Assembly: GCF_900155435.1 (NCBI RefSeq)
Contig: NZ_LT700212.1
Coordinates: 2,479,626 to 2,543,625 of the forward strand
Source of the DNA: Actinomyces provencensis
Lineage (GTDB): Bacteria > Actinomycetota > Actinomycetes > Actinomycetales > Actinomycetaceae
Length of the DNA stretch: 64,000 bases
Direction: 5' to 3'
Shown: one piece after another, positions 2,267 through 13,615 of the stretch
Numbering within the stretch: the stretch's first letter is position 1
Layout of the letters: each line of letters opens with the position of its first letter
Position numbers and translations under genes: made by a program
Notes under the pieces: model-generated
Databases searched by the model: none
What the model saw: the letters and a program-made list of their open reading frames with translations, nothing else
Told to the model about the DNA's origin: nothing

Positions 2267-3736
2267 ATGGACGCCATGAGCGAAGACTGGTCGGGCCTCT
2301 TCTCCACCGCTGACGGCTACACGGACCTGGCGGCCCGGGGCGAGCCACTGTCCCCCCTCGACGGTCGCTACCGCCCCGTCGTCGCGCACCTGGCGGACTT
2401 CCTCTCCGAGGCCGCGCTGAACCGCGCACGTGTCCACGTCGAGGTCGAATGGCTCATCCACCTCCTGGACCACCGCGTGCTGCCGGGTGCCCCGAGCCTG
2501 TCCGAGGCGGATCGCACGTACCTGCGCCGCATCCCCGTGGAGTTCGGCGACGCCGACATCGAGCGCCTGGCGGGCATCGAGGCCCGCACGCGCCACGACG
2601 TCAAGGCCGTGGAGTACCTGCTCAAGGAGTACCTGGACGCCGCCCCCGATGCGCTGGGCCCCGACACGGTCCTGCCGCAGGTGCACGAGGTCGTCCACAT
2701 CTTCTGCACATCGGAGGACATCAACAACCTCTCCTACGCCCTCACCGTGAAGGCCGCCGTGGAGCAGGTGTGGCTGCCTGCGGCCGACGCGCTGGTCGAC
2801 CACCTGGCCGACATGGCCAGGGCGGGGGCGAAGGTCCCCATGCTCGCCCACACCCACGGCCAGCCCGCCACCCCGGTGACCATGGGCAAGGAGCTGGCGG
2901 TCTTCGTCCACCGGCTGCGCCGCCAGTTGGCGCGCGTGGCGGGCACCGAGTACCTGGGCAAGGTCAACGGTGCCACCGGCACCTGGGCCGCCCATGTCGT
3001 CTCCGTGCCCGGGGCCGACTGGCCGGAGGTGACGCGGGAGTTCGTGGAGTCCCTGGGGCTCGTGTGGAACCCGATCACCACCCAGATCGAGTCCCACGAC
3101 TGGCAGTCGGAGCTCTACGGGGACATCGCGCGCTTCAACCGCATCGCCCACAACCTGGCCACCGACTGCTGGACCTACATCTCCATGGGGTACTTCCACC
3201 AGAACCTCGCGGCCCAGGGCTCGACCGGGTCCTCCACGATGCCCCACAAGGTCAACCCGATCCGCTTCGAGAACGCGGAGGCGAACCTGGAGGTCTCCTC
3301 CGCGCTGCTGGACTCCCTGGCAGCGACCCTGGTGACCTCACGCATGCAGCGCGACCTCACCGACTCCACCACCCAGCGCAACATCGGGGTGGCCCTGGGG
3401 CACTCGCTGCTGGCCATCGACAACCTCTCGCGCGGGCTGGCGGGCGTCGACATGGACGAGGCCCGCATGGCCGCGGACCTGGACGCGAACTGGGCGGTGC
3501 TGGGTGAGGCCGTGCAGCAGGCCATGCGCGCGGCCTCCATCGCGGGGGCGACCGGCATGGCGAACCCCTATGAGCGCCTCAAGGAGCTCACCCGCGGGCA
3601 CACCGTGTCGGGGGAGGACATGCGGGCCTTCATCGCGGACCTCGGACTGCCCGCCGACGTGGAGGAACGCCTGCTGGCTCTCACCCCCGCGAGCTACACG
3701 GGCCTGGCGGACCGCGTGGTGGACTTCCTGGACTGA
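2267..3736 (+). CDS. purB: Adenylosuccinate lyase
   Basis: PurB catalyses two steps of purine synthesis: cleavage of SAICAR to AICAR, and of adenylosuccinate to AMP, releasing fumarate each time. The protein (489 residues) has the fumarase/aspartase-superfamily motifs in order: SPLDGRY near the N terminus, TSEDINN at about 150, the HTHGQPATP loop at about 205, and the signature GSSTMPHKVNPI at about 325. It is the form with an extended N terminus, close to the usual 460-490 residues. Two ATGs compete: 2267 and 2276; neither has a clear Shine-Dalgarno site, so the message may be leaderless or weakly initiated. It stands alone, with a convergent gene downstream. Confidence 0.95.
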   Translation: MDAMSEDWSGLFSTADGYTDLAARGEPLSPLDGRYRPVVAHLADFLSEAALNRARVHVEVEWLIHLLDHRVLPGAPSLSEADRTYLRRIPVEFGDADIERLAGIEARTRHDVKAVEYLLKEYLDAAPDALGPDTVLPQVHEVVHIFCTSEDINNLSYALTVKAAVEQVWLPAADALVDHLADMARAGAKVPMLAHTHGQPATPVTMGKELAVFVHRLRRQLARVAGTEYLGKVNGATGTWAAHVVSVPGADWPEVTREFVESLGLVWNPITTQIESHDWQSELYGDIARFNRIAHNLATDCWTYISMGYFHQNLAAQGSTGSSTMPHKVNPIRFENAEANLEVSSALLDSLAATLVTSRMQRDLTDSTTQRNIGVALGHSLLAIDNLSRGLAGVDMDEARMAADLDANWAVLGEAVQQAMRAASIAGATGMANPYERLKELTRGHTVSGEDMRAFIADLGLPADVEERLLALTPASYTGLADRVVDFLD

Positions 3737-3932: not shown

Positions 3933-4079
3933 GTGTGCAGAAATGCACCCAGTTTCCCGACGCGGGAACCCCAGACGGACGGTCCACGCGACGCTGCTCG
4001 GCTCTGACCTGCGTCGACACCCAGACCCTGATCCGGGGTGCATGGATCCGACAGGGAAACTGGGTGCATTCCTGCACAC
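3933..4079. repeat. 147-bp element with 26-bp terminal inverted repeats (copy A)
   Basis: The ends, 3933-3958 and 4054-4079, are inverted copies with one mismatch in 26. The left end begins GTGTGCAGAAATGCACCC and itself contains a mini-hairpin, GTGCA-GAAA-TGCAC, with a GNRA-type loop. A second copy lies at 59589-59734 with nearly the same length and shared interior words (CCACGCG, TGACCTGC.TCGA, CGGGG). Both copies sit between convergent genes. It contains no reading frame of note. It could be a miniature inverted-repeat element, a REP-type element or a bidirectional terminator. Confidence 0.85.
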
Positions 4080-4331
4080 CTTGCGGTGACACCACGAGCG
4101 CTGACCCCTCCGAGGGGTACTGCGGGAACCTCCTGCCACCGACACCGCCGACTCCTGGACGAGGAGCAGGAACGGGACCGGGACCGGGACCGGGACCGGG
4201 ACCGGGACCGGGACGAGGATCGGCATCAGGACCTCGACCAGCACCACCAGGACCCGGTCCAGGGCCACGAACTCCGGCAGCCGAGCCCTCCGGTGCCGGT
4301 GCGCGCAGGCGACGCGGGACGACGGAGCAGG
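4080..4331. repeat. Gap with GGGACC hexanucleotide tandem repeat
   Basis: Between the inverted-repeat element and the end of the next minus-strand gene there is no credible gene. From about 4174 to 4215 the hexamer GGGACC is repeated six to seven times. Such repeats can vary in number by slippage; here it lies in the 3' region of the minus-strand gene. Confidence 0.7.
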
Positions 4332-5168
4332 TCAGGGACGCCAGTTCGGGTCGGAGGCGGGGGAGCCGTAGCGGGCGTAGAGGTCTGCCGGGCGCGCGGT
4401 CTCGTCCTCGCAACCCAGTGACGTCATGTCCACCAGCACCTTCGCTGACGGGTCACGATCCCTGCGCACGGGCAGTACGAGTCGGTTCCTGCGCGCACGG
4501 GAGATCTCCGCGTTGTCGGCACGTGTGTCGCTGACCGAGCCACCGTCCGCGCCTGGAAGGGCCTCGTCGTCGCGCTCCACGCGCCGTGTCGTGTCCTCCC
4601 CCGCGTGCACGTCCCGGTCGCCGTCCACGCCGGCACCGGCACCGGCACCGGCATCTGCGGGAACCACGTTCTCCCGATCGGGGCCCGCGGAGCCCCCCTG
4701 CCCGACGAGCAGCACACGGGCGCGCACCGCGACCGGGGCCAACTCGGGGTTGTCCCATGCCGCACGCGCTGCCCGGTCGAGGAGGTCCTGCGCCGCCTCC
4801 TGGTCCGGGGTCCTCTCCATCCGCACGTCGATGCTGACCAGTGGCGGTTTGCCGAAGGCCTCGTGGACCTGGACGTCCACCGAGGCGGGCTCCGCCTCCG
4901 GACCGTGGATCTCCACCCCCTGCTGCACGGCGTCGGAGACGAGCATCCGGATCCGCTCGGAGCGCCCGGCGCGGTGCGTGGGCCTCAGGGAGCGCAGGGC
5001 CAGTCCTGCGCCCAACGCGCCCAGACCCGCGACCCCGATGAGCACCGGGTTGTCGATCTGCGGCAGTCGCCTGGAGGCGCCCCGCGACCCCTTGTTCACC
5101 GGGACGGAACCGCGCCCCGATCCGAACACGGCCCGCAGCCCTCTCGCCCAATCGTCAGTGCTCGCCAT
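4332..5168 (-). CDS. Single-helix membrane-anchored protein of unknown function
   Basis: The 278-residue product starts MASTDDWARGL. Residues about 37-60 form a hydrophobic segment (PVLIGVAGLGALGAGLAL) followed by Arg-rich sequence, fitting one transmembrane helix. A folded-looking domain follows (about 75-170), with alternating beta-like strands such as VSIDVRMER and AVRARVLLVG that loosely recall Asp23-type proteins; I would not assign it. The rest is acidic and low in complexity, with an Ala-Gly repeat. The start at 5168 has GAGGGGAG five bases upstream and lies 14 bp inside the end of the upstream hydrolase gene, so the two are coupled. Confidence 0.65.
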   Translation of the reverse strand: MASTDDWARGLRAVFGSGRGSVPVNKGSRGASRRLPQIDNPVLIGVAGLGALGAGLALRSLRPTHRAGRSERIRMLVSDAVQQGVEIHGPEAEPASVDVQVHEAFGKPPLVSIDVRMERTPDQEAAQDLLDRAARAAWDNPELAPVAVRARVLLVGQGGSAGPDRENVVPADAGAGAGAGVDGDRDVHAGEDTTRRVERDDEALPGADGGSVSDTRADNAEISRARRNRLVLPVRRDRDPSAKVLVDMTSLGCEDETARPADLYARYGSPASDPNWRP

Positions 5169-7170
5169 CGCCACTCCCCTCATCCGCGGCGACGTCGCCG
5201 CCACCGTCCCGTCCGTGGTCCTGCTCTCCCGGCATGCGGTCCGCCGGATCCCGGTGCCCGGCGTGCTCGTCCGCCGCCCCCTCGTCCACCGCGGCACCAT
5301 CCACTCCACCGCGGTCCACCGCGACGTCACCCACCGCGTGGCCATCCGTCGGTCCCACGTCCGCCGCGCGGGCCCCTGCCGCTCCACCCGCCGCACCGGG
5401 GGCACCGGACACACCCGTCACGCCGGTCCCGTCCTGGGGACCAGTCTCCCCCGGACCGCCGGTGGGCGCCGGGTGGGCGGCTGCGTCCCCGGCGGTGCCC
5501 CTGTCGCGCCCACCGGCCCCACCTCCGTCACCGTTGCGGCGCAGGACGGAGTCGACCACGCCGCGCAGCTCCTCCGCCGCCGAGGCCAGGGACCGCCCGA
5601 CCTCCTCGGCCCGCTCGTTCGCGCGCTCCTGGAGGACGGAGAGATCCGGGAGCTCGGCGAGCTCCGCGCGCCACTCCCCACGCAACCTGTCGATGGCCTC
5701 GGTGCCGTTGGGCACGACCTGGGAGAGATCGGGCAGGACCTGGTTGAGGTCGAGCAGCGTGATCTCGGGCAACGTGAGCAGCGGATTGGGCTCCCACTCC
5801 TCGGCGTAGTCGACCGGTTCCCAGTCGGGTCGGTCGATCTCGACGTAGGTGTTCCAGGTGTCGCGCGTGGTCGGCTCCAACAGGTCCTGCCAGACGTCGA
5901 AGATCAGGACGCGCACGGGTTCGCCCTCACGCGGCAGGAACTCGCGCAGCTTCGCGACGGTCTCGGCTGCCCGCCCCCACGGGGCCACCGTCGCCTTGCG
6001 CTCGGCCTGGCGGACGGTCTCGGTGTAGGTGGCCGAGGAGTGCGCGTAGTAGAGGGGTCCCCGACGAGGGCGCACCAGGCGCCGTCCGATGGTGACCCTC
6101 TGGTCCGGGGCCCTCTGGGGCGTGCCGTCGATGGAGGGGACGACGTCCTGGTCGTGGGCGACGGCGAGCATGGTGACGTCGGGACGGATCCGCAGTCGGC
6201 GACTCGGCGTCCCCAGCGACAGGACCGCCGTCACGTCCACGCCCACCGTCCCCGGGTCGCCGGCCGCCAGGGCGGTCGCCACCATCCCCCCCTGGGAGTG
6301 GCCGCAGATGAGGACCGGTTCCCGACTCCACCGGTCCTTCGGGACCCCGTCGGCACGCATGGCGGCGTGGAGTGCCTGGACGGTGCCGATGCGCATCGCG
6401 GAGGGCACGTTGAGGACCTCACGGATGTTCGTCTCCGTGTCGGCCGGGTTCGGGGTGGAGGGCCCGGTCATGTGGTCGGTCCCGGGCAGGGAGACCAACC
6501 AGCGCCGTGCCTCGCCGTGGCCGACCCGCGTGATCTTCACCGCCTGCCCGTAGGCCATGACCCAGTAGAGGTCGTCGATGTCGGCGGCCATGTCACCCAG
6601 GGAGGTGGGGGCTTCGAAACGGCGCACGGCCGGGGTGGGGTGCCCCTCGGGGAGGGGCAGGTGCGGCCCGTCGGGTGCGGGCACACCGGAGTCGAAGAAG
6701 GCCCGCGCATGGACCTCGCCGCCGCGGAACTGCCCCAGGGCGGTTCCCACCGCCAGCATCGAGGTCATCAGGGAGTCGTAGCCCCGGCGCGGGACCAGGG
6801 GGAGCATGGTGGCCGCACGACCGTCCCGGTCGGCGTGCAGGCGGATCCGGGCGCGTAGGTAGGCGCGTCCGATGCTGGTGACCTTCCGGGCCGACGCCGC
6901 CACGGAACGCACCAGCAGGGTGTCCAGACCGGGTGCGTCGAAGAACATGCGCTGGGAGCGCTCGAGGATCTCGGCCCCGTCCTCCTCGACCCGCGTGCGC
7001 AGGGCCGCACGCATCCGGGCGGGCAGGACACCCAGCTCCACCACGCCGGCCAGGACGGCATTGGCCGCGAGCGCGGGGACGAGGGGCGCCAGGCGCGTGT
7101 AGAGGTACGAGGGCGGGAAGGCCTGGGGCACACGTCGTGAGGGGTAGAACGACGGCCTCGACCCTGGCAT
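5155..7170 (-). CDS. Alpha/beta-hydrolase-fold protein with long acidic tail
   Basis: The 671-residue product has an alpha-helical first 190 residues, then an alpha/beta-hydrolase core with the nucleophile elbow GHSQGG at about residue 292 (Ser as nucleophile). LVSLPGTDHM earlier may supply the oxyanion strand. The D and H of the triad probably lie in AVAHDQDVVPS and YYAHSSATY. The last 140 residues are a Gly/Ala/Asp-rich disordered tail. Such proteins are lipases or esterases; the substrate is unknown. ATG at 7170 is preceded by AGGAAGGAGG. Together with the WXG100-like pair at the left edge it might belong to a secreted-effector neighbourhood, but that is speculative. Confidence 0.7.
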   Translation of the reverse strand: MPGSRPSFYPSRRVPQAFPPSYLYTRLAPLVPALAANAVLAGVVELGVLPARMRAALRTRVEEDGAEILERSQRMFFDAPGLDTLLVRSVAASARKVTSIGRAYLRARIRLHADRDGRAATMLPLVPRRGYDSLMTSMLAVGTALGQFRGGEVHARAFFDSGVPAPDGPHLPLPEGHPTPAVRRFEAPTSLGDMAADIDDLYWVMAYGQAVKITRVGHGEARRWLVSLPGTDHMTGPSTPNPADTETNIREVLNVPSAMRIGTVQALHAAMRADGVPKDRWSREPVLICGHSQGGMVATALAAGDPGTVGVDVTAVLSLGTPSRRLRIRPDVTMLAVAHDQDVVPSIDGTPQRAPDQRVTIGRRLVRPRRGPLYYAHSSATYTETVRQAERKATVAPWGRAAETVAKLREFLPREGEPVRVLIFDVWQDLLEPTTRDTWNTYVEIDRPDWEPVDYAEEWEPNPLLTLPEITLLDLNQVLPDLSQVVPNGTEAIDRLRGEWRAELAELPDLSVLQERANERAEEVGRSLASAAEELRGVVDSVLRRNGDGGGAGGRDRGTAGDAAAHPAPTGGPGETGPQDGTGVTGVSGAPGAAGGAAGARAADVGPTDGHAVGDVAVDRGGVDGAAVDEGAADEHAGHRDPADRMPGEQDHGRDGGGDVAADEGSGDGEH

Positions 7171-7380
7171 GCACCCCCTCCTTCCTGCCCGCCGGTCCCG
7201 GGGACCGCTGTCCCTGCCGGCACCCGGGCACCCGTGCCGGACCCGGTGTCCAGCGTAACCACAGCGCGTCCTCCCGGCGGCCCGGGCCCCCGGTGCACCC
7301 CCGTCGGTGCACCCCCGGTCGGAGCCCGCCGGACACCGAGGCGGCGTCGCCCTCGTACGGCCACGGCCGGGATCCACCTG

Positions 7381-7409
7381 TTGACCGCGATACCCCATAG
7401 GGGTATGGT
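7381..7409 (+). promoter_or_regulatory. Copper-operon promoter with CsoR operator
   Basis: TTGACC (7381-7386) and TATGGT (7404-7409) are separated by exactly 17 bases, a good sigma-70-class promoter. The 17-bp palindrome ATACCCC-ATA-GGGGTAT (7390-7406) fills the spacer and enters the -10 box. GC-tract palindromes of this kind are the known CsoR operator type, so apo-CsoR should block this promoter until Cu(I) binds. Confidence 0.85.
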
Positions 7410-7435
7410 CGGAACACCGGTCACGGAGGAGGGTC

Positions 7436-7720
7436 ATGATGCCTGGGTACTCGAGCTCGACGGAGCAGTACCTCACGCGCCTGCGGCGCATCGAGGGACA
7501 GGTCCGCGGTGTCCAGCGCATGGTCTCCGAGGACTCCTACTGCATCGATGTCCTCACCCAGATCTCCGCGGTCCAGAGCGCGCTCGACTCCGTGGCCCTG
7601 GGTCTGCTCCAGGACCACATGAACCACTGCGTGGTGCACGCGGCCAAACGGTCCGACGAGGAGGGGCGCGAGAAGGTCGAGGAGGCCACCCGCGCCATCG
7701 CCCGCCTCGTGAAGTCCTGA
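7436..7720 (+). CDS. csoR: Copper-sensing transcriptional repressor CsoR
   Basis: The 94-residue protein is an all-helical CsoR/RcnR-family repressor. The Cu(I)-binding residues fit the C-H-C pattern: Cys in DSYCIDVL (about 37), His in DHMNHCVVH (about 62) and Cys (about 66). The N-terminal YLTRLRRIEGQVRG helix carries the basic DNA-contact residues. CsoR leaves its operator when it binds Cu(I). It is the first gene of the copper operon, under a promoter overlapped by a palindromic operator, so it is autoregulated. GGAGGAGGG lies two to ten bases before the ATG at 7436; a second ATG follows at 7439. Confidence 0.93.
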   Translation: MMPGYSSSTEQYLTRLRRIEGQVRGVQRMVSEDSYCIDVLTQISAVQSALDSVALGLLQDHMNHCVVHAAKRSDEEGREKVEEATRAIARLVKS

Positions 7721-7776
7721 GGCCGACAACCCGCACACCCGTCCGCGAGCGCACCGCCCGCCACCGTTCCCATCCT

Positions 7777-7791
7777 GCGGGCAGCGCCCGC
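7777..7791 (+). terminator. Small hairpin between csoR and the copZ-like gene
   Basis: GCGGGC (7777-7782) pairs with GCCCGC (7786-7791) across an AGC loop in the 123-bp gap after csoR. It may weaken readthrough or set the ratio of repressor to chaperone. Confidence 0.4.
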
Positions 7792-7843
7792 ACCCGACCC
7801 CACACCCCACCCACGGCCCCCGGGCCACCAGGAGGAAGACACC

Positions 7844-8098
7844 ATGGCCACCACTGAGCACCCCATCGACCGCACCGTCGAGCTCTCCGTCAACGGGATG
7901 ACCTGCTCCCACTGCGTCGCATCCGTCACCGAGGAACTCCGCGAGGTCCCCGGTGTGAAGAACATCGACGTGATCCTCAAGTCGGGGGGCACCTCGAAGG
8001 TCACCGTCGTCACCGACACCGGCGTGGACGACACCCTGCTGAAGAAGGCCGTGGACGAGGCCGGGTTCGAGCTGGTCGGGGTCGCCCGGGACTTCTGA
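7844..8098 (+). CDS. copZ: Copper chaperone, heavy-metal-associated domain (CopZ-like)
   Basis: The 84-residue protein is a single HMA domain. It carries the Cu(I)-binding motif GMTCSHCVASV at about residues 18-28 and the beta-alpha-beta-beta-alpha-beta pattern through KKAVDEAGFELVGV. CopZ proteins carry Cu(I) in the cytosol and pass it to CopA or CsoR. An AGGAGGAAG site precedes the ATG. It lies between csoR and copA and should be induced by copper with them. Confidence 0.9.
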   Translation: MATTEHPIDRTVELSVNGMTCSHCVASVTEELREVPGVKNIDVILKSGGTSKVTVVTDTGVDDTLLKKAVDEAGFELVGVARDF

Positions 8099-8321
8099 GC
8101 CCGACCGCCGCTCCGCACCGGCTCCCCCGTCCGACCACCGCACGCGGGCGCACGCGTGTCCCCACCGGGACACGTCCACCCCCGCTGACGCACCCCTGAA
8201 ACCGGCCGGGGCGCGGTCGCGCGCGCACCTGCGCGCCACGGCGCCACACGACCACCACCCCGTGCTCCCGGGCGCACCCCAGAGGATGCCGCCCCGGACA
8301 CCCACGCCCCCAGAAGGCGTC
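8099..8321. other. Gap before copA, no gene seen
   Basis: This 223-bp stretch is C-rich on the plus strand and has no credible frame of its own. In-frame codons upstream of the chosen copA ATG extend back to 8262, so part of it could be N-terminal coding sequence if the upstream start is used. Confidence 0.5.
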
Positions 8322-11111
8322 ATGACGAATCCCCTCACCCAGCAGCTCCCGGCCGACACCCACCCGGCGAGCGCCAGCGCATCCGACACCCACCCCGCAC
8401 CAGCCGCGGACCACACCACCGCGACCACCACCCCCCACATCGGGGAGGGCGCCCGCCGTCATGCCCAGGCCCTGCGCCGCCGCGTGATCGTCTGCGCCCC
8501 GCCCACCGTGGTCGTCGTGGCCGTCTCCATGGTCCCCGCCTGGCAGTTCACCGGGTGGCAGTGGGTGGCGGCCCTCCTGTCCCTGCCGGTGGTCACCTGG
8601 GGGGCCTGGCCCTTCCACTCCGCCGCCTGGCGCGCGGGACGCCACGGTTCCACCACCATGGACACCCTGGTCAGCCTGGGTGTCATCGCCTCCACCCTGT
8701 GGAGCTGGTGGGCCCTGCTCTTCGGTGGTGCGGGCATGCTGGGCATGCGCATGCAGATGTCCCTGCTCCCCCGGGCGTCGGGCCACCACGCCGAGATCTA
8801 CTTCGAGGGTGCCTGCGTCATCACCCTCTTCCTCCTCATCGGCCGCTGGGCGGAGGCACGCACCCGCTACCGCGCCGGTGACGCCCTGCGCTCCCTGCTG
8901 GAGCTCGGTGCCAAGGAGGCCACCCGGCTGCGCACCGAGGCCGACGGCACCCGTCACGAGGAGCGCATCCCCGCCGCGGACCTCGCCGTGGGGGACCTGT
9001 TCCTGGTGCGTCCCGGTGAGAAGGTCGCCACCGACGGCCGCGTCGTGGAGGGCTCCTCCGCCCTGGACACCTCCCTGCTCACCGGTGAGTCCGTGCCCGT
9101 GGACGTCTCCGCGGGTGACGACGTCACCGGGGCGACGGTCAACACCTGGGGCGCGCTCGTGGTGCGCGCGACCCGCGTCGGCTCCGAGACCACCCTGGCC
9201 CAGATCGGGCGCATGGTCACCGAGGCACAGGCCGGCAAGGCCCCCGTCCAGCGCCTGGCGGACCGGATCTCCTCCGTCTTCGTCCCCGTCGTCATCGCGA
9301 TCTCCCTGGTGACCCTGGCGGGCTGGCTCCTGGCGGGAGGCTCGGTGCAGGCCGCCTTCACCGCGGCCGTCGCCGTGCTGGTGGTCGCCTGCCCCTGCGC
9401 GCTGGGACTGGCCACACCCACCGCGCTGCTGGTCGGGTCCGGCCGCGCCTCGCAGCTGGGCATCGTCATCAAGTCCGCCGAGATCCTCGAGCAGACCCGC
9501 ACCATCGACACGATGGTCCTCGACAAGACGGGCACCATCACCACCGGCCGCATGAGCCTGGAGTCCGTCGTTCTGCCGGGCGGGACCACATGGGCGTCCG
9601 ACGCCGTGCCCACCAGCGCACCCGCCGGCGCACCCGTCGCCACGCACGAGGGCGGCGCCGCGAGGGACGGTGGGCACGCGGGCCAGGCGTCGACCGACAC
9701 GCACGAGGGCGGCGCGGTGTCGCTCAGCGTGCCGGACGAGGGCGGCGCGGTGTCGCCCGCCGAACCGGCCGCCCGGGCACTCGCCCTCGCCGCCGGGGCC
9801 GAGTCCGGCTCCGAGCACCCCCTGGCCCGTGCCGTCGTCGCCGGCGCCACCGCAGCGGGCCTGACGCCCGAGGCGACCACGGCATTCACCAACCACCCCG
9901 GCCTCGGTGTCTCCGCCCTGGTCCCGGGCGCGGGCGGGACGAGTGACCTCGTCCTCGTGGGACGACCGACGTGGCTGCACGACCTCGGCATCGAGGCGCC
10001 TGCCGACCTCGCCTCGGCCGTCGACGACGCCCAGGACACCGGTGCCTCGGTGGTCCTCCTCGCGACCGTTCCGGACTGGCAGGACGCCCTCGGGACCACC
10101 CGACCGTCGGCGGGCGCCGACGCCGTTCACAGCGGTGCCGCACCCACAGGGCCACTCCCCGCCGGGTCCGCCGGAGGCGGGACCGACGCAGCTGCCACCG
10201 ACGCGCGGACGGACGGACCCGCCCTCGTCCACGTCGACATGGACGTCCAGGGCATGACCTGCGCCTCCTGCGTGCGCCGGGTGGAGCGCAAGCTGCAGAA
10301 GCTGCCCGGCGTGACGGCAGCCGTCAACCTCGCCACGGAGTCCGCCGCGATCACCCTGGACCGTGACTACTCCGACGCCGAGCTGGAGAAGGTCGTCGAC
10401 GACGCCGGGTACCACGCCACCGTGCGCGGGCGCTCCGCCGCCTCCCCGGACGGGGCGGGCACCTCCCCCGACGCCCCGGAGGACGGCGCCACCGTGACCG
10501 GCCCGACCTCCGCCCGGGTGCTGCCCGCCCGGATCAGCGGTGGCAGCGTCCGGGCCGTCCTCGTCGTGCGCGACACCCTCAAGCCGACCTCGGTCGAGGC
10601 GGTCGCCCAACTGCGCGACCTCGGCATCGAGCCGGTGCTCCTGACCGGTGACAACGAGGCCTCCGCACGCCACGTCGCCGACGAGGTCGGCATCTCCCGG
10701 GTCATCGCCCAGGTCATGCCCGACCAGAAGCGTGACGTGGTCCGCGACCTGCAGGAGCAGGGCCGTGTCGTCGCCATGGTCGGGGACGGTGTCAACGACG
10801 CGGCGGCGCTCGCCCAGGCCGGTGTGCGGGGACTCGGCATCGCGATGGGGTCCGGCACCGACGTGGCGATCCAGGTCGCCGACATCACGCTGGTCAACTC
10901 CGAGCCGACCGCTGCCGCGACCGCCATCCGCGTCTCGCGGCGCACCCTGCGGGTCATCAAGCAGAACCTGTTCTGGGCCTTCGCCTACAACGTGGCGATG
11001 ATCCCGCTGGCGGTGGCCGGGCTGCTCAACCCGATGATCGCGGCCGCCGCCATGGCCTTCTCCTCGGTGTTCGTGGTGGTCAACTCCCTGCGCCTGCGCC
11101 GGGCGTCCTGA
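8322..11111 (+). CDS. copA: Copper-translocating P1B-type ATPase with internal HMA domain
   Basis: CopA pumps Cu(I) out of the cytosol. From the ATG at 8322 (929 residues) the order is: a disordered Thr/Ala-rich leader with no HMA domain; membrane helices; TGES of the actuator domain at 254; the CPC metal site at 357-359; DKTGT (phosphorylated Asp) at 401; the SEHPL motif at 497-501; TGDN at 775; GDGVND at 821; and the last two helices. A complete HMA domain with GMTCASC (about 644) lies at roughly 633-702, between the HP motif and TGDN, flanked by Gly/Ala/Pro linkers. The usual place is the N terminus. Linkers at 430-480 hold repeated (T/D)xEGGA peptides encoded by ACGAGGGCG words. A start at 8262 is possible. 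Confidence 0.92.
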   Translation: MTNPLTQQLPADTHPASASASDTHPAPAADHTTATTTPHIGEGARRHAQALRRRVIVCAPPTVVVVAVSMVPAWQFTGWQWVAALLSLPVVTWGAWPFHSAAWRAGRHGSTTMDTLVSLGVIASTLWSWWALLFGGAGMLGMRMQMSLLPRASGHHAEIYFEGACVITLFLLIGRWAEARTRYRAGDALRSLLELGAKEATRLRTEADGTRHEERIPAADLAVGDLFLVRPGEKVATDGRVVEGSSALDTSLLTGESVPVDVSAGDDVTGATVNTWGALVVRATRVGSETTLAQIGRMVTEAQAGKAPVQRLADRISSVFVPVVIAISLVTLAGWLLAGGSVQAAFTAAVAVLVVACPCALGLATPTALLVGSGRASQLGIVIKSAEILEQTRTIDTMVLDKTGTITTGRMSLESVVLPGGTTWASDAVPTSAPAGAPVATHEGGAARDGGHAGQASTDTHEGGAVSLSVPDEGGAVSPAEPAARALALAAGAESGSEHPLARAVVAGATAAGLTPEATTAFTNHPGLGVSALVPGAGGTSDLVLVGRPTWLHDLGIEAPADLASAVDDAQDTGASVVLLATVPDWQDALGTTRPSAGADAVHSGAAPTGPLPAGSAGGGTDAAATDARTDGPALVHVDMDVQGMTCASCVRRVERKLQKLPGVTAAVNLATESAAITLDRDYSDAELEKVVDDAGYHATVRGRSAASPDGAGTSPDAPEDGATVTGPTSARVLPARISGGSVRAVLVVRDTLKPTSVEAVAQLRDLGIEPVLLTGDNEASARHVADEVGISRVIAQVMPDQKRDVVRDLQEQGRVVAMVGDGVNDAAALAQAGVRGLGIAMGSGTDVAIQVADITLVNSEPTAAATAIRVSRRTLRVIKQNLFWAFAYNVAMIPLAVAGLLNPMIAAAAMAFSSVFVVVNSLRLRRAS

Positions 11112-11152
11112 AGCGCGAGGGCGGTGGGCGACTCCCGTCGAGATGTGGTTCT

Positions 11153-11190
11153 CCCACCGAGACATGGCCGCGTACCCACCTCTCGGTGGG
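11153..11190. terminator. Bidirectional terminator-like hairpin between convergent genes
   Basis: CCCACCGAGA (11153-11162) is perfectly complementary to TCTCGGTGGG (11181-11190) with an 18-base loop. It lies in the 197-bp gap between the 3' ends of copA and the defence operon, where a two-way terminator would be expected. Confidence 0.6.
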
Positions 11191-11308
11191 CACCCACGCT
11201 TCGGTGCAGCGACATCGCACGAGCACGACGACCCCGACAAGGGCCGGCACAGTCACGTCCGCGCCGAACCGTGAAGGAACTCGGACCGGCGGACCGATGA
11301 GCAGGTCC

Positions 11309-13615
11309 TCAACGTCTCCCGACTGTCAGTAGTCTCTCCCGCGCCCTGGTCCCCGCCACGTAGAACAGGTTCCGCAACTTCCGCTTCTCCGTGTCGACCG
11401 CGGCCTCCCCCTCGGGCGGCAGCTGATCCCCGTCCCGGATGACGACCGCCTTGTACTCCAGACCCTTCGCCCGGTACATCGTCATCACACGCACTGCGTC
11501 GTCCAGGCGTTCCTCGTCGGTGTTGCCCTTCACCTCGACAGCATCGATGCCGGCGTCCGAGAGCACTCCGACCGTGTCCGCCACGCCGCGGTTGTCCCGG
11601 CGGACGACGGCGATGTCGCGCGGCCAGTACTTGCGCTCACCCATGTCATCCACCTCGTCGAACAGTGCACGGATCCACTGCACCATCGCCCCATCAGGAT
11701 CGGCGCCCAGGTCCGCGAACGTCCCCTCTCCGTTGACATCCACCGCCGGTCCCGAGAACACCGAACGCTCCCCGGTCAACGGGTCGATCTCCTCATCCAG
11801 GTCATCGGCCCCGGCGTCAGCCACTCCGAGCGACCACCGCAGGATCTCCCGCGACGTCCGGTAGTTCACCGTCAGCCGCCGCGAACGCCCCCGCGTTTCG
11901 ATCCCGAACCGGGACAGCGGCACCGGCCGACCATAGATCCGCTGGTGGGCATCCCCCGCGATGAACAAATCGTCGGGCCCGGCAGGCACCAACGCCCGCA
12001 GCATCCGCCAGTGCGACGCCGTGAGGTCCTGTGCCTCGTCGACGACCAGGTGGCGCACCCCGGTTCGCGCCCGCAGCCCTGACGCCGACCCCACCGCCGA
12101 CGCCGCACCGCCCTCCCGCTCATCGGCCTCCAACGCCCGCGCCACCAGGTCCCGCAACTGCTCCCACGTGTACCGGTTCATCACGGACAGCTCGGTGGTC
12201 AACCGCTCCACGCACCTCCAGACCTCGACGCGCTGGGCGCGCGACAGGCGCCGCCCCCGTCCCGACCGTGGGACGACCAGGTACTGGTCCCGGGAGGTGA
12301 GACCTCCCCCGAGAACCACCTGCTCCCACTCCTCGGCCAGGAACCCCGGCTCCACCGACGTGCCGATCACGGCGTCCGCGCACGCACGCCCCAGCTCGGT
12401 GGCCGTCGCCGGCCGCCCCTTCCCCACCAGTTCCGCCAGCGCCGGGTCCAGGTCCGCGATCCGTCGCGCCAACGCGTCGGTGTTGATCACCTCGATGTTG
12501 TGCGCGACGCGGTCCTGCTCCTTCTTCGCCGCCTCGTCCCCGGTGACATCGCCGGACCGGATGACGGCGCGTACCTGCGACTCGATCGCCGTGGCCAGGT
12601 TCCGTGTGAACGTCACGAACACGACCGGCGCGAACCGCGCCCCCGGCGTCCGCACCAGACCCGGTTGCCGGGCCAGGTGGACGGCGCGGTGCACCGCCGT
12701 CACCGTCTTGCCCGTCCCGGCACCGCCCGTCACGCGGAAGGATCCCTTCCAGGGCCCGTGATCGACCAACGCCCGCTGGGCAGGATGCAGCCACACCCGC
12801 CACGCCTCAAGGCTGCCGCTCATCGCCGCCTGGACAGCCTGCGCGTCCTCCATGTCGACGAAGGTCATCTGCGACACCGGTCGCTTGAGCGCTGCCTGGA
12901 CGTCATGGGTGTCCACGGGTTCCGGCGCCATGTAGTCCGCCTGGATCTCGGCGATCGAGCGTCCCGCGAGCACGTCGAGCAGCGCCGCGCCCTGCGCCGT
13001 CGGCAGGTTCTCCGCCACGTCCTCGGCCTGTCTCCGGTTGGCCGACCCGGCCAGCGAATGCGCCGTCGCCGGGTCCAGCCCGACGGACAGGAGCTCGTCC
13101 TCGTCCAGCTCCACCACCTCGGACTCGGCCGCCCCCTCCGCTCCCGGATCCGGGCGGGACCCGCGCGACCCGGCCCAGGAGTCGCCCTCGTCGGTCCCGC
13201 GTGCCGGGGGCGTCCCGACGGGAGCGCCCGAGGTCCCGGCCACCCGCACCGTCCCCACTGCCAGCGCCCGCGCCTTGGCCAGAGCCCTCTCGTCGATGAT
13301 GTCGAACCCGCCGGTCCTGGGGTTGACCTCGATCCGCAGCGTCCCGGCGAACGTGTACGCGTCGTCGTGGGGACGCACGCTGATGAGCGCCCATGCGTCA
13401 CCCCCGACATCGGCCAGGACCGCCCGGTAGTTGTCGTTGACGCGGGCAGTGAACACCGACCTGCTCCGCGCGCCCTTCGGCTGCTTGAGGTCCAGTCCTC
13501 CGTCGACGCCTCGCTGGAACTTCCCCATGAAGGTGAGCACCCTCTGCTTGAGGGTCCCGTCCATCTTCGCCGTCTCGTCGGCGAACTGCTTCGACATGAC
13601 GATCGACCGAGTCAT
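11309..13615 (-). CDS. UvrD-like superfamily 1 helicase with RelE/ParE-like N-terminal domain
   Basis: The 768-residue protein has two parts. Residues 1-100 resemble RelE/ParE toxins: KQRVLTFMGKFQ, then GARSRSVFTARVNDNYRAVLAD and WALISVRPHDDAY, a compact beta-rich fold. After an acidic linker, an SF1 helicase core shows Walker A GGAGTGKT (about 296), VVDEAQDLT (about 521), NYRTS, VMTMYRAKGLEYKAV and YVAGTRARE. It is the last gene of the operon; its ATG overlaps the upstream stop by four bases (ATGA), with GGAAGGAG seven bases before. In DISARM the last gene would encode the phospholipase D protein DrmC, which is missing here. The toxin-like domain may only bind nucleic acid or ribosomes. The defence role is inferred from the operon. 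Confidence 0.8.
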   Translation of the reverse strand: MTRSIVMSKQFADETAKMDGTLKQRVLTFMGKFQRGVDGGLDLKQPKGARSRSVFTARVNDNYRAVLADVGGDAWALISVRPHDDAYTFAGTLRIEVNPRTGGFDIIDERALAKARALAVGTVRVAGTSGAPVGTPPARGTDEGDSWAGSRGSRPDPGAEGAAESEVVELDEDELLSVGLDPATAHSLAGSANRRQAEDVAENLPTAQGAALLDVLAGRSIAEIQADYMAPEPVDTHDVQAALKRPVSQMTFVDMEDAQAVQAAMSGSLEAWRVWLHPAQRALVDHGPWKGSFRVTGGAGTGKTVTAVHRAVHLARQPGLVRTPGARFAPVVFVTFTRNLATAIESQVRAVIRSGDVTGDEAAKKEQDRVAHNIEVINTDALARRIADLDPALAELVGKGRPATATELGRACADAVIGTSVEPGFLAEEWEQVVLGGGLTSRDQYLVVPRSGRGRRLSRAQRVEVWRCVERLTTELSVMNRYTWEQLRDLVARALEADEREGGAASAVGSASGLRARTGVRHLVVDEAQDLTASHWRMLRALVPAGPDDLFIAGDAHQRIYGRPVPLSRFGIETRGRSRRLTVNYRTSREILRWSLGVADAGADDLDEEIDPLTGERSVFSGPAVDVNGEGTFADLGADPDGAMVQWIRALFDEVDDMGERKYWPRDIAVVRRDNRGVADTVGVLSDAGIDAVEVKGNTDEERLDDAVRVMTMYRAKGLEYKAVVIRDGDQLPPEGEAAVDTEKRKLRNLFYVAGTRARERLLTVGRR

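Follow-up and report, generated by a model that had tools for sequence, protein, structure and literature searches.

Predicted Cu+-ATPases of Actinomyces provencensis and other Actinomycetaceae carry their HMA domain inside the N domain

The window analysed here is a 64-kb stretch of Actinomyces provencensis DNA, and all nucleotide coordinates are positions within it. Judged from the sequence, copA follows csoR and copZ as the third gene of an operon preceded by a candidate CsoR-type operator (Table 1). The promoter-like site is the sole match of its kind within 7150-11500 (50 shuffles gave a mean of 0.0, sd 0.2). The sequence TACCCCNNNNGGGTA, which we take to be the exact CsoR operator pattern, occurs with up to one mismatch at a single place in the 64 kb, the palindrome at 7391-7405, where it has zero mismatches; this place matches on both strands and is hence counted twice, and shuffled sequences gave a mean of 0.35 matches, with two or more in 11 of 100. 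CsoR operators have been described as G-tract pseudopalindromes (PMC3902906, available in part). The product of the first gene is assigned to the CsoR family by its PF02583 score together with the operator palindrome upstream, and it scores 131.9 bits against the NCBIfam RicR model, below the cut-off of 175. It contains Cys36, His61 and Cys65, presumably its ligands. The CopZ-like protein scores 57.6 bits against the best NCBIfam CopZ model, below the cut-off of 85.

Table 1. Features of the copA locus (window positions; residue numbers refer to CopA).
Feature	Positions	Strand	Basis
Promoter-like site of the operon (TTGACC, 17 nt, TATGGT)	7381..7409	+	pattern match
Perfect palindrome TACCCCATAGGGGTA, predicted CsoR-type operator, overlapping promoter spacer and -10	7391..7405	.	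pattern match
csoR-like repressor, 94 aa	7436..7720	+	Pfam PF02583, 111.1 bits (cut-off 22.8)
copZ-like gene for a copper chaperone of 84 aa with a single HMA (GMTCSHC)	7844..8098	+	Pfam HMA, 47.2 bits (cut-off 24.8)
copA, P1B-1 Cu+-ATPase with internal HMA, 929 aa, intact	8322..11111	+	TIGR01511, motifs
CPC, transport site, 357-359	9390..9398	+	sequence; C357/C359 invariant 21/21
DKTGT, phosphorylation motif, 401-405	9522..9536	+	sequence, alignment
Copy-specific disordered loop before SEHPL, THEGG repeats, 418-481	9573..9764	+	alignment, model
SEHPL, nucleotide-binding motif, 497-501	9810..9824	+	sequence, alignment
N-domain strand 5' of insert, 576-583	10047..10070	+	AlphaFold model, LpCopA alignment
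N-side linker, mostly disordered, 584-634	10071..10223	+	model, alignment
Internal HMA, 635-707 (CxxC 647-650 at 10260-10271)	10224..10442	+	Pfam, fold
C-side linker, 708-741	10443..10544	+	model, alignment
N-domain strand 3' of insert, continuing into P domain, 742-753	10545..10580	+	model, LpCopA alignment
TGDN, P domain, 775-778	10644..10655	+	sequence

By its motifs the copA product is a CPC-type (P1B-1, Cu+) ATPase, and it scores 496.7 bits with TIGR01511, a copper-ATPase model whose curated cut-off is 397. The P1B-1 motifs TGE (254), CPC (357), DKTGT (401), SEHPL (497), TGDN (775) and GDGVNDAA (821) are all present, and the protein also has GRP at 547 and GMTCASC at 644-650. The last two helices of P1B-1 pumps bear the signatures YN and MxxSS, found here as YN 889 and MAFSS 911. 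In an alignment of 21 proteins C357, C359, H499, Y889, N890, M911, S914 and S915 are invariant, and S497 and P500 are present in at least 90%. Pfam finds an E1-E2_ATPase domain at 198-377 and its best Hydrolase stretch at 742-834, and the structural model has the P1B fold (Z 31.4, rmsd 6.7, 637 residues aligned to 7r0g_A), the N and P domains matching 3a1e_A with Z 24.7 and rmsd 4.8 (263 of 268 residues aligned across model residues 379-873). From these motifs and the csoR-copZ operon we infer that CopA is the operon's ATP-driven Cu(I) exporter.

The original prediction, made from this sequence alone, held that the leader before the membrane domain lacks an HMA domain and that a complete one with GMTCASC lies at about residues 633-702, between SEHPL and TGDN. 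Both statements are borne out: Pfam finds a single HMA in the protein, at 641-698 (E 1.6e-13, 51.2 bits, cut-off 24.8), and none in the leader, the motif order 497, 644-650, 775 places it between SEHPL and TGDN, and in the AlphaFold model (pTM 0.65) residues 635-707 form a strand-helix-strand-strand-helix-strand fold. CopA thus departs from the terminal metal-binding domains (MBDs) that are typical of P1B-1 pumps, though not strictly defining of them, MBD number varying from zero. In the model, strands 576-583 and 742-753 make up the last β-hairpin of the N domain and the HMA sits between them; the alignment to solved LpCopA (3rfu) stops after LpCopA residue ∼540 and picks up at the following strand. 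The insertion point is the β5-β6 hairpin, outside the nucleotide-pocket loops; the loops that close on nucleotide in P1B N domains are reported to be α1-α2 and β2-β3 (PMC5089723, available in part). The likely pocket residues E494, H499, G527, G529 and G547, according to our own mapping to HMA6 residues, are invariant in all 21 aligned proteins.

The long flexible linkers predicted on both sides of the HMA stand for the A. provencensis copy, where they measure 51 and 34 residues with pLDDT below 50 at 593-632 and 708-731, but not as a trait of the layout, since across the 21 aligned proteins the N-side linker measures between 18 and 79 residues and the C-side linker between 16 and 78. The same copy is also longer between aligned positions 417 and 482, with 64 residues where the other 20 proteins have 0 to 24, and residues 428-477 of this loop likewise have pLDDT below 50.

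Homologues were collected with one profile spanning the HMA and the P domain, and the internal layout was found in 62 of the 213 Actinomycetaceae genomes searched, representing 9 of 36 genera. Two wider samples of 396 genomes each, one across the order and one across the phylum, gave full-span matches that, among those listed, all fall within the Actinomycetaceae. Six phylum-sample matches that start inside or just past the HMA half (G151, G411, G237, G282, G518 and G269) proved on reading not to be internal: five have an N-terminal CxxC, and the one cut by a contig end shows no CxxC. A scan of contigs, of which the best 80 of at least 585 related stretches (at least 590 candidate stretches) were considered, gave a P1B ORF at 76 loci, with 73 ORFs N-terminal, three internal (L056, L057 and L065) and one motif-less; none was recovered at L055, L078, L090 and L108. 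The Rhizobiaceae MAG locus L078 and, by its joined match, L094 looked internal at first, but neither is: in L078, which was read by hand, as was L055, a shortened core is fused behind an N-terminal HMA, and L094 has its HMA at the N-terminus. Of 64 matching plasmid records none has a single place covering 80% of the query; among the 20 records listed, the two whose matches begin in the HMA (H11 and H18) have them at the starts of their genes and are N-terminal.

All 20 fully read relatives have their sole CxxC between DKTGT and GDGxND in a continuous single frame, and Pfam scores an HMA in all 21 aligned proteins, in which G644, M645, C647 and C650 are invariant. Both HMA cysteines are present at 88 of 88 loci, which overlap one another and represent 47 genomes, all retaining the pair; at two loci of one genome (L051 and L173, G019) the motif reads GMTCGSC. 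A DKTGT precedes the motif in frame by no more than 300 residues at 85 of these loci; the exceptions are L055 and L206, which both show the one copy interrupted by a string of N, and L194, which lies close to the end of its contig. The HMA dN/dS is 0.05-0.29 for the five of six pairs in which it could be computed. Among 12 genomes of the genus, A. provencensis included, with at most 18 candidates scored in each, matches with E≤1e-10 comprise one ORF per genome, and therefore no second HMA-bearing CopA was seen that could take over.

An artefact, with two genes joined or a mis-assembly, was considered; in one relative, Pauljensenia hongkongensis (L055), a string of N close to the junction means that this copy cannot be judged there. 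The A. provencensis copy itself lends this explanation no support, and we give it practically no weight: assembly error is excluded because the same layout recurs in the 62 genomes, and the continuous frames of all 20 relatives and the low HMA dN/dS rule out a frameshift as well. The internal placement is a real, conserved rearrangement. The original prediction that the MBDs of known P1B ATPases are terminal agrees with PMC11970713, PMC10973460 and PMC5089723, each available in part, and we found no description of a CopA with an internal HMA or MBD in the open-licence literature searched; the available parts of a paper on Schaalia genomes (PMC11131293) do not mention copper.

As to its origin, a tree of the pump core does not reject the internal-HMA pumps as one clade (p-AU 0.652), and the tree in which they are held together is better by 9.2 log units; on the free tree they require two changes and not one. 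The clade is nested with N-terminal-HMA CopAs of Actinomycetaceae (32 rows, SH-aLRT 99), and the trees fit one origin among these. In a tree of the HMA domains, built on 67 columns only, 37 CopZ proteins are set apart from all 72 CopA HMAs (24 internal and 48 N-terminal, SH-aLRT 99), and on this tree we reject the capture of a copZ into copA. Because the internal HMAs group with those of CopA and not with CopZ, the internal HMA looks like the former N-terminal domain, relocated, and we infer that it probably moved once. Where cores are 60-70% identical the internal HMAs are 67% alike, against 63% for N-terminal HMAs, whereas at 35-60% core identity they are 50-53% alike, against 60-62% for the N-terminal HMAs of Actinomycetaceae, and therefore constraint may be partly relaxed.

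Our main reading, to which we assign a probability of about 0.45 and which is accordingly tentative, is that the relocated MBD acts as a copper sensor tethered to the N domain and, in its copper-free state, holds turnover back. In an ancestor within the Actinomycetaceae a single N-terminal MBD would have shifted into the last N-domain β-hairpin, with loss of the N-terminal copy, and by analogy the internal HMA may retain the role proposed for the MBDs of LpCopA and ATP7B. The copper-free HMA would lie against the head on its A-/N-domain side and slow turnover, and Cu(I) handed over by CopZ, encoded next door, would release it; because the HMA is tethered to the moving N domain and not to the membrane-side N-terminus, it could report directly to the ATP-handling head. 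For LpCopA, autoinhibition at the A-/N-domain interface, lifted by copper, has been proposed (PMC11970713, in the parts available), but there it is ascribed to the tail before the MBD, of which no counterpart was identified in A. provencensis CopA. The same source reports that the activity of AfCopA is unchanged after loss of its MBDs, so MBDs can be dispensable. We are rather doubtful of a reading in which the N domain itself is the copper sensor, the MBD on its last hairpin coupling copper occupancy to closure on the P domain; the pump would therefore gate ATP use from within the head, and no P1B ATPase is so described in the literature searched.

The tethered HMA might instead ferry Cu(I) from CopZ to the membrane entry, with the N domain a mere post and regulation secondary. 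A copZ homologue adjoins copA in 19 of 20 internal-HMA loci, the A. provencensis linkers are long enough in principle, and for other pumps a delivery role of the MBDs has been suggested (PMC10973460, in part). Yet copZ adjacency is no marker of the internal layout, because 18 of 20 loci with an N-terminal-HMA copA likewise have a copZ homologue next to it; the relative with linkers of just 18 and 16 residues would have an HMA of limited reach, and the CopZ of A. fulgidus is reported to pass copper straight to the membrane site (PMC11970713, in part), so we consider such a courier unlikely. We would likewise give only a small chance to a neutral move, by which the domain landed by accident in an insert-tolerant hairpin and persists as a dispensable copper-binding module uncoupled from ATP. 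Linker length and sequence vary freely, the internal HMA is somewhat more divergent at 35-60% core identity, and inserts also occur in loops of the N domain in plant HMA6 and HMA8 (PMC5089723, in part); against this, the cysteine pair is retained in every genome read, even though 57 of 253 core pairs in the internal-HMA group are only 35-50% identical, and no second HMA-bearing CopA appeared in the 12 genomes of the genus.

The original prediction also suggested that copper binding could directly control ATP binding or phosphorylation, which is only a possibility. In its most explicit form, an apo- or Cu-HMA covering the ATP pocket or blocking N-P closure, it seems quite improbable: the HMA belongs covalently to the N domain, and even the shortest linkers might allow it to reach the pocket, but the insertion hairpin is not among the reported pocket loops (PMC5089723) and the likely pocket residues are unchanged.

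The role of MBDs in copper pumps is disputed between delivery, sensing and inhibition (PMC11970713, in part), and the rearrangement amounts to a natural test of MBD function, in which the domain has been cut from the membrane-side N-terminus and yet kept on the N domain, with its cysteines wherever they were read. If the domain still matters here, mechanisms that require an N-terminal position are hardly tenable, and the question is directly testable because close relatives with the ordinary layout provide matched controls. The last hairpin of a P1B N domain is moreover shown to accept a folded domain.

The nearest core relatives are the N-terminal-HMA CopAs of other Actinomycetaceae and related Actinomycetota, whose HMAs are of the same CopA type; all 20 that were read have a CxxC at residues 10-130 and none between DKTGT and GDG, and Actinomyces denticolens CopA (L075), with its CxxC at residue 13, has this ordinary layout. 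The P1B-1 pumps human ATP7B and rice HMA4 share the HMA fold and CxxC, and their outer MBDs are proposed to be inhibitory and freed by copper, but their MBDs are N-terminal, and ATP7B has six, all before the membrane domain, where A. provencensis CopA has one, internal (PMC10973460, in part). Arabidopsis HMA6 and HMA8 have N-domain inserts in loops β1-α1 and α4-β5 (PMC5089723, in part), and the extra loop 418-481 of A. provencensis CopA appears to be located like the first of these; the plant inserts, however, are disordered and not a folded metal-binding domain, and lie outside the β5-β6 hairpin. LpCopA of Legionella pneumophila (3rfu, 4bbj) and AfCopA (3j09, 7r0g) rank first or close to first among the sequence and fold matches and have the core, motifs and N-/P-domain fold in common with A. 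provencensis CopA. Their MBDs lie before the membrane domain, as do the HMAs of the two solved chains with HMA matches in the sequence alignment, and the hairpin that is a short turn in LpCopA carries the HMA in A. provencensis CopA.

The 929-residue CopA of the window contains one HMA domain, at residues 641-698 (Pfam), and its alignment to the solved Legionella pneumophila CopA (LpCopA, 3rfu) is continuous to about residue 581, is interrupted by about 160 extra residues, and picks up again with the strand that runs on into the P domain. Because this break falls within the LpCopA N domain, taken as E433-D553 in PMC11970713, we place the insert in the last hairpin of the N domain, in agreement with the original prediction that the HMA domain sits inside the ATP-binding region. 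An AlphaFold model (mean pLDDT 78.2, pTM 0.65) has a full HMA fold at 635-707 and strands at 576-583 and 742-753 flanking the insert. The strand that follows the insert spans some 12 residues and stops close to the N/P hinge, and this geometry suggests that the insert-bearing hairpin is on the N-domain face opposite that hinge. Ahead of SEHPL there is also a 64-residue loop (window 9573-9764), mostly disordered and with THEGG repeats, which is long in the window's copy alone; its apparent place is the beta1-alpha1 loop, where plant HMA6 likewise has an insert according to PMC5089723.

The gene lies in a copper operon whose features are listed below. With at most one mismatch allowed, the CsoR-type pattern matches the window at the palindrome alone, shuffled sequences giving a mean of 0.35 matches and at least two in 11 of 100 cases; no terminator-like site was found in 7150-11500 (shuffles mean 0.4). 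Antisense to copA is a 1076-aa open frame (8010-11240, minus strand), which we do not count as a gene; long antisense open frames are frequent in G+C-rich DNA.

Features of the copper operon in the window
Feature	Position	Strand	Basis and remarks
promoter-like site	7381-7409	+	sole such site in 7150-11500; shuffles mean 0.0
perfect palindrome TACCCCATAGGGGTA	7391-7405		CsoR-type pattern; overlapped by the promoter-like site
csoR	7436-7720	+	Pfam; NCBIfam model match below cut-off
copZ	7844-8098	+	Pfam; NCBIfam model match below cut-off
copA	8322-11111	+	Pfam; third gene, behind csoR and copZ

The original prediction left the spread of this placement to a collection of homologues, and the layout proves common to all 20 relatives read whole (20 loci), the sole CxxC in each lying between DKTGT and GDGxND. 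In a search of 151 genomes, a 240-residue query bridging the insert and the P domain matched contiguously in many members of the Actinomycetaceae. A profile (A2) built from 21 sequences, all from this family, so that very different internal cases could escape it, has full-span matches in 62 of 213 Actinomycetaceae genomes and 9 of 36 genera: 33 of 35 genomes of the window's genus, the two exceptions being 84% and 88% complete, and 11, 5, 4, 3, 2, 2, 1 and 1 genomes of the other eight. Among the matches listed by E-value, an order-wide sample of 396 genomes has full-span matches in ten, all Actinomycetaceae and separated from the first HMA-only match by a gap in E from 5e-57 to 5e-33, and a phylum-wide sample of 396 has them in the window's own genome alone; six matches from the latter that start in the HMA half of the profile or shortly beyond it were read at their loci, and none has the internal layout.

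Named records with the internal layout, among the matches listed, are Pauljensenia hongkongensis, 'Actinomyces marseillensis' and two Actinomycetaceae MAGs; the P. hongkongensis copy (L055) carries a stretch of Ns at the linker/junction just before 5016, where the frame is not readable. The CopA of Actinomyces denticolens, unlike that of the window, has an N-terminal HMA domain. Equal-score matches near both ends of one contig (G942:C1:16285-16776 and 2616563-2617054) may reflect overlapping contig ends. In a Rhizobiaceae MAG (L078, 4725-5831, plus strand) an N-terminal HMA domain is joined to the last part of the N domain, followed by the P domain, with the preceding membrane part missing, which looks like a deletion or misassembly. 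A P1B ATPase of a Treponema MAG (L118, 3318-5849, plus strand) has a CxxC near residue 9 and a second at 786, after the core, possibly a C-terminal metal-binding domain (MBD).

A copZ homologue adjoins copA in 19 of the 20 internal-layout loci, with csoR in 7. Because a copZ homologue, in one case without the CxxC motif, is also found within the flanking ~1 kb at 18 of 20 N-terminal-HMA loci, this adjacency is not specific to the internal layout. The window's genome has nine E1-E2 ATPase family matches, including the window's CopA; a pattern scan of the other eight found CPC in none, CPG in two and CPH in one. The CPH-type (CopB-like) pump (L228, 1328-3751, minus strand) has a leader very rich in histidine and methionine. 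The CPG-type pumps (L226, 1366-3366; L227, 1877-4165; both minus strand) lack CxxC and are preceded by separate open frames (3458-3736 and 4041-4337, both minus strand) for small HMA proteins of 92 and 98 aa with the motif GFSCPSC, so that this genome carries the HMA domain inside one pump and as a separate protein for two.

Trees of cores and of HMA domains bear on how the layout arose. The first holds 72 cores with the HMA domain removed, 24 internal (L054 and L065 being identical) and 48 N-terminal. In a quick version the internal pumps need two changes; constraining them to one group improves the tree by 9.2 log units and is not rejected (p-AU 0.652), so a single origin is allowed, not proven. 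The internal pumps and eight family N-terminal CopAs form a set of 32 (SH-aLRT 99). In the same tree a Sporosarcina (Bacillota) record contributes a CopA (L077, 4950-7349, plus strand) that groups with those of Arthrobacter and Pseudarthrobacter (SH-aLRT 98), a case of transfer or contamination. The HMA tree (109 domains, 67 columns, one motif-less CopZ-like match dropped) splits 37 CopZ from 72 CopA domains (SH-aLRT 99), with all 24 internal domains on the CopA side; its inner forks are weak and the internal domains are not one resolved group. No pump with both an N-terminal and an internal HMA domain was found among the 20 read and the window's. The simplest reading of these sequences would be that an N-terminal MBD shifted into the N domain and the former copy was lost.

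The CxxC pair is present in 88 of 88 loci (47 genomes). Across six pairs of relatives (three being combinations of the same three sequences), dN/dS values are rough, the stretches being short: 0.13, 0.23, 0.29, 0.28 and 0.05 for the HMA domain (sixth pair not computable); 0.05, 0.12, 0.16, 0.23, 0.07 and 0.03 for the first core stretch; 0.18, 0.16, 0.17, 0.60, 0.19 and 0.18 for the N domain ahead of the insert; 0.69, 0.16, 0.53 and 1.46 for the N-side linker (two pairs not computable); and 0.20, 0.23, 1.00, 0.51, 0.28 and 0.16 for the C-side linker. At core identities of 35-50%, HMA identity is 50% for internal against 60% for family N-terminal domains (57 and 20 pairs); at 50-60% it is 53% against 62% (156 and 54 pairs), and at 60-70%, 67% against 63% (34 pairs each). 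Given the CxxC pair in every locus examined and the rather low HMA dN/dS, the internal domain is kept, yet its lower identity at 35-60% core identity suggests that it is perhaps held less strictly than an N-terminal one.

What the domain does there is more tentative. We favor copper sensing with release of inhibition, at a probability of roughly 45%, because an MBD carried on the N domain would be well sited for copper-released inhibition and badly sited for a role that needs a membrane-side N-terminus. For LpCopA, PMC11970713 proposes that the N-terminal part inhibits at the A-/N-domain interface until copper releases it. Similar inhibition by the outer MBDs of ATP7B-type pumps is proposed in PMC10973460, which describes MBDs as typically N-terminal. 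Delivery of copper by the tethered HMA domain, and a neutral relocation of the kept domain, are both rather unlikely and stand level with each other. Least probable is the original prediction's own version, direct gating of nucleotide binding: the hairpin lies outside the loops, alpha1-alpha2 and beta2-beta3, that close on ATP according to PMC5089723, and the residues that by our own mapping probably contact nucleotide (E494, H499, G527, G529 and G547) are invariant across the 21 aligned proteins.

In the open-licence papers searched we found no description of an internal MBD in a P1B ATPase. The sequences themselves are already public, and the architecture may be listed in automated domain databases. 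That known P1B MBDs are terminal, as had been claimed, agrees with three papers, PMC11970713 and PMC10973460 placing them at the termini and PMC5089723 'at one of the termini'.
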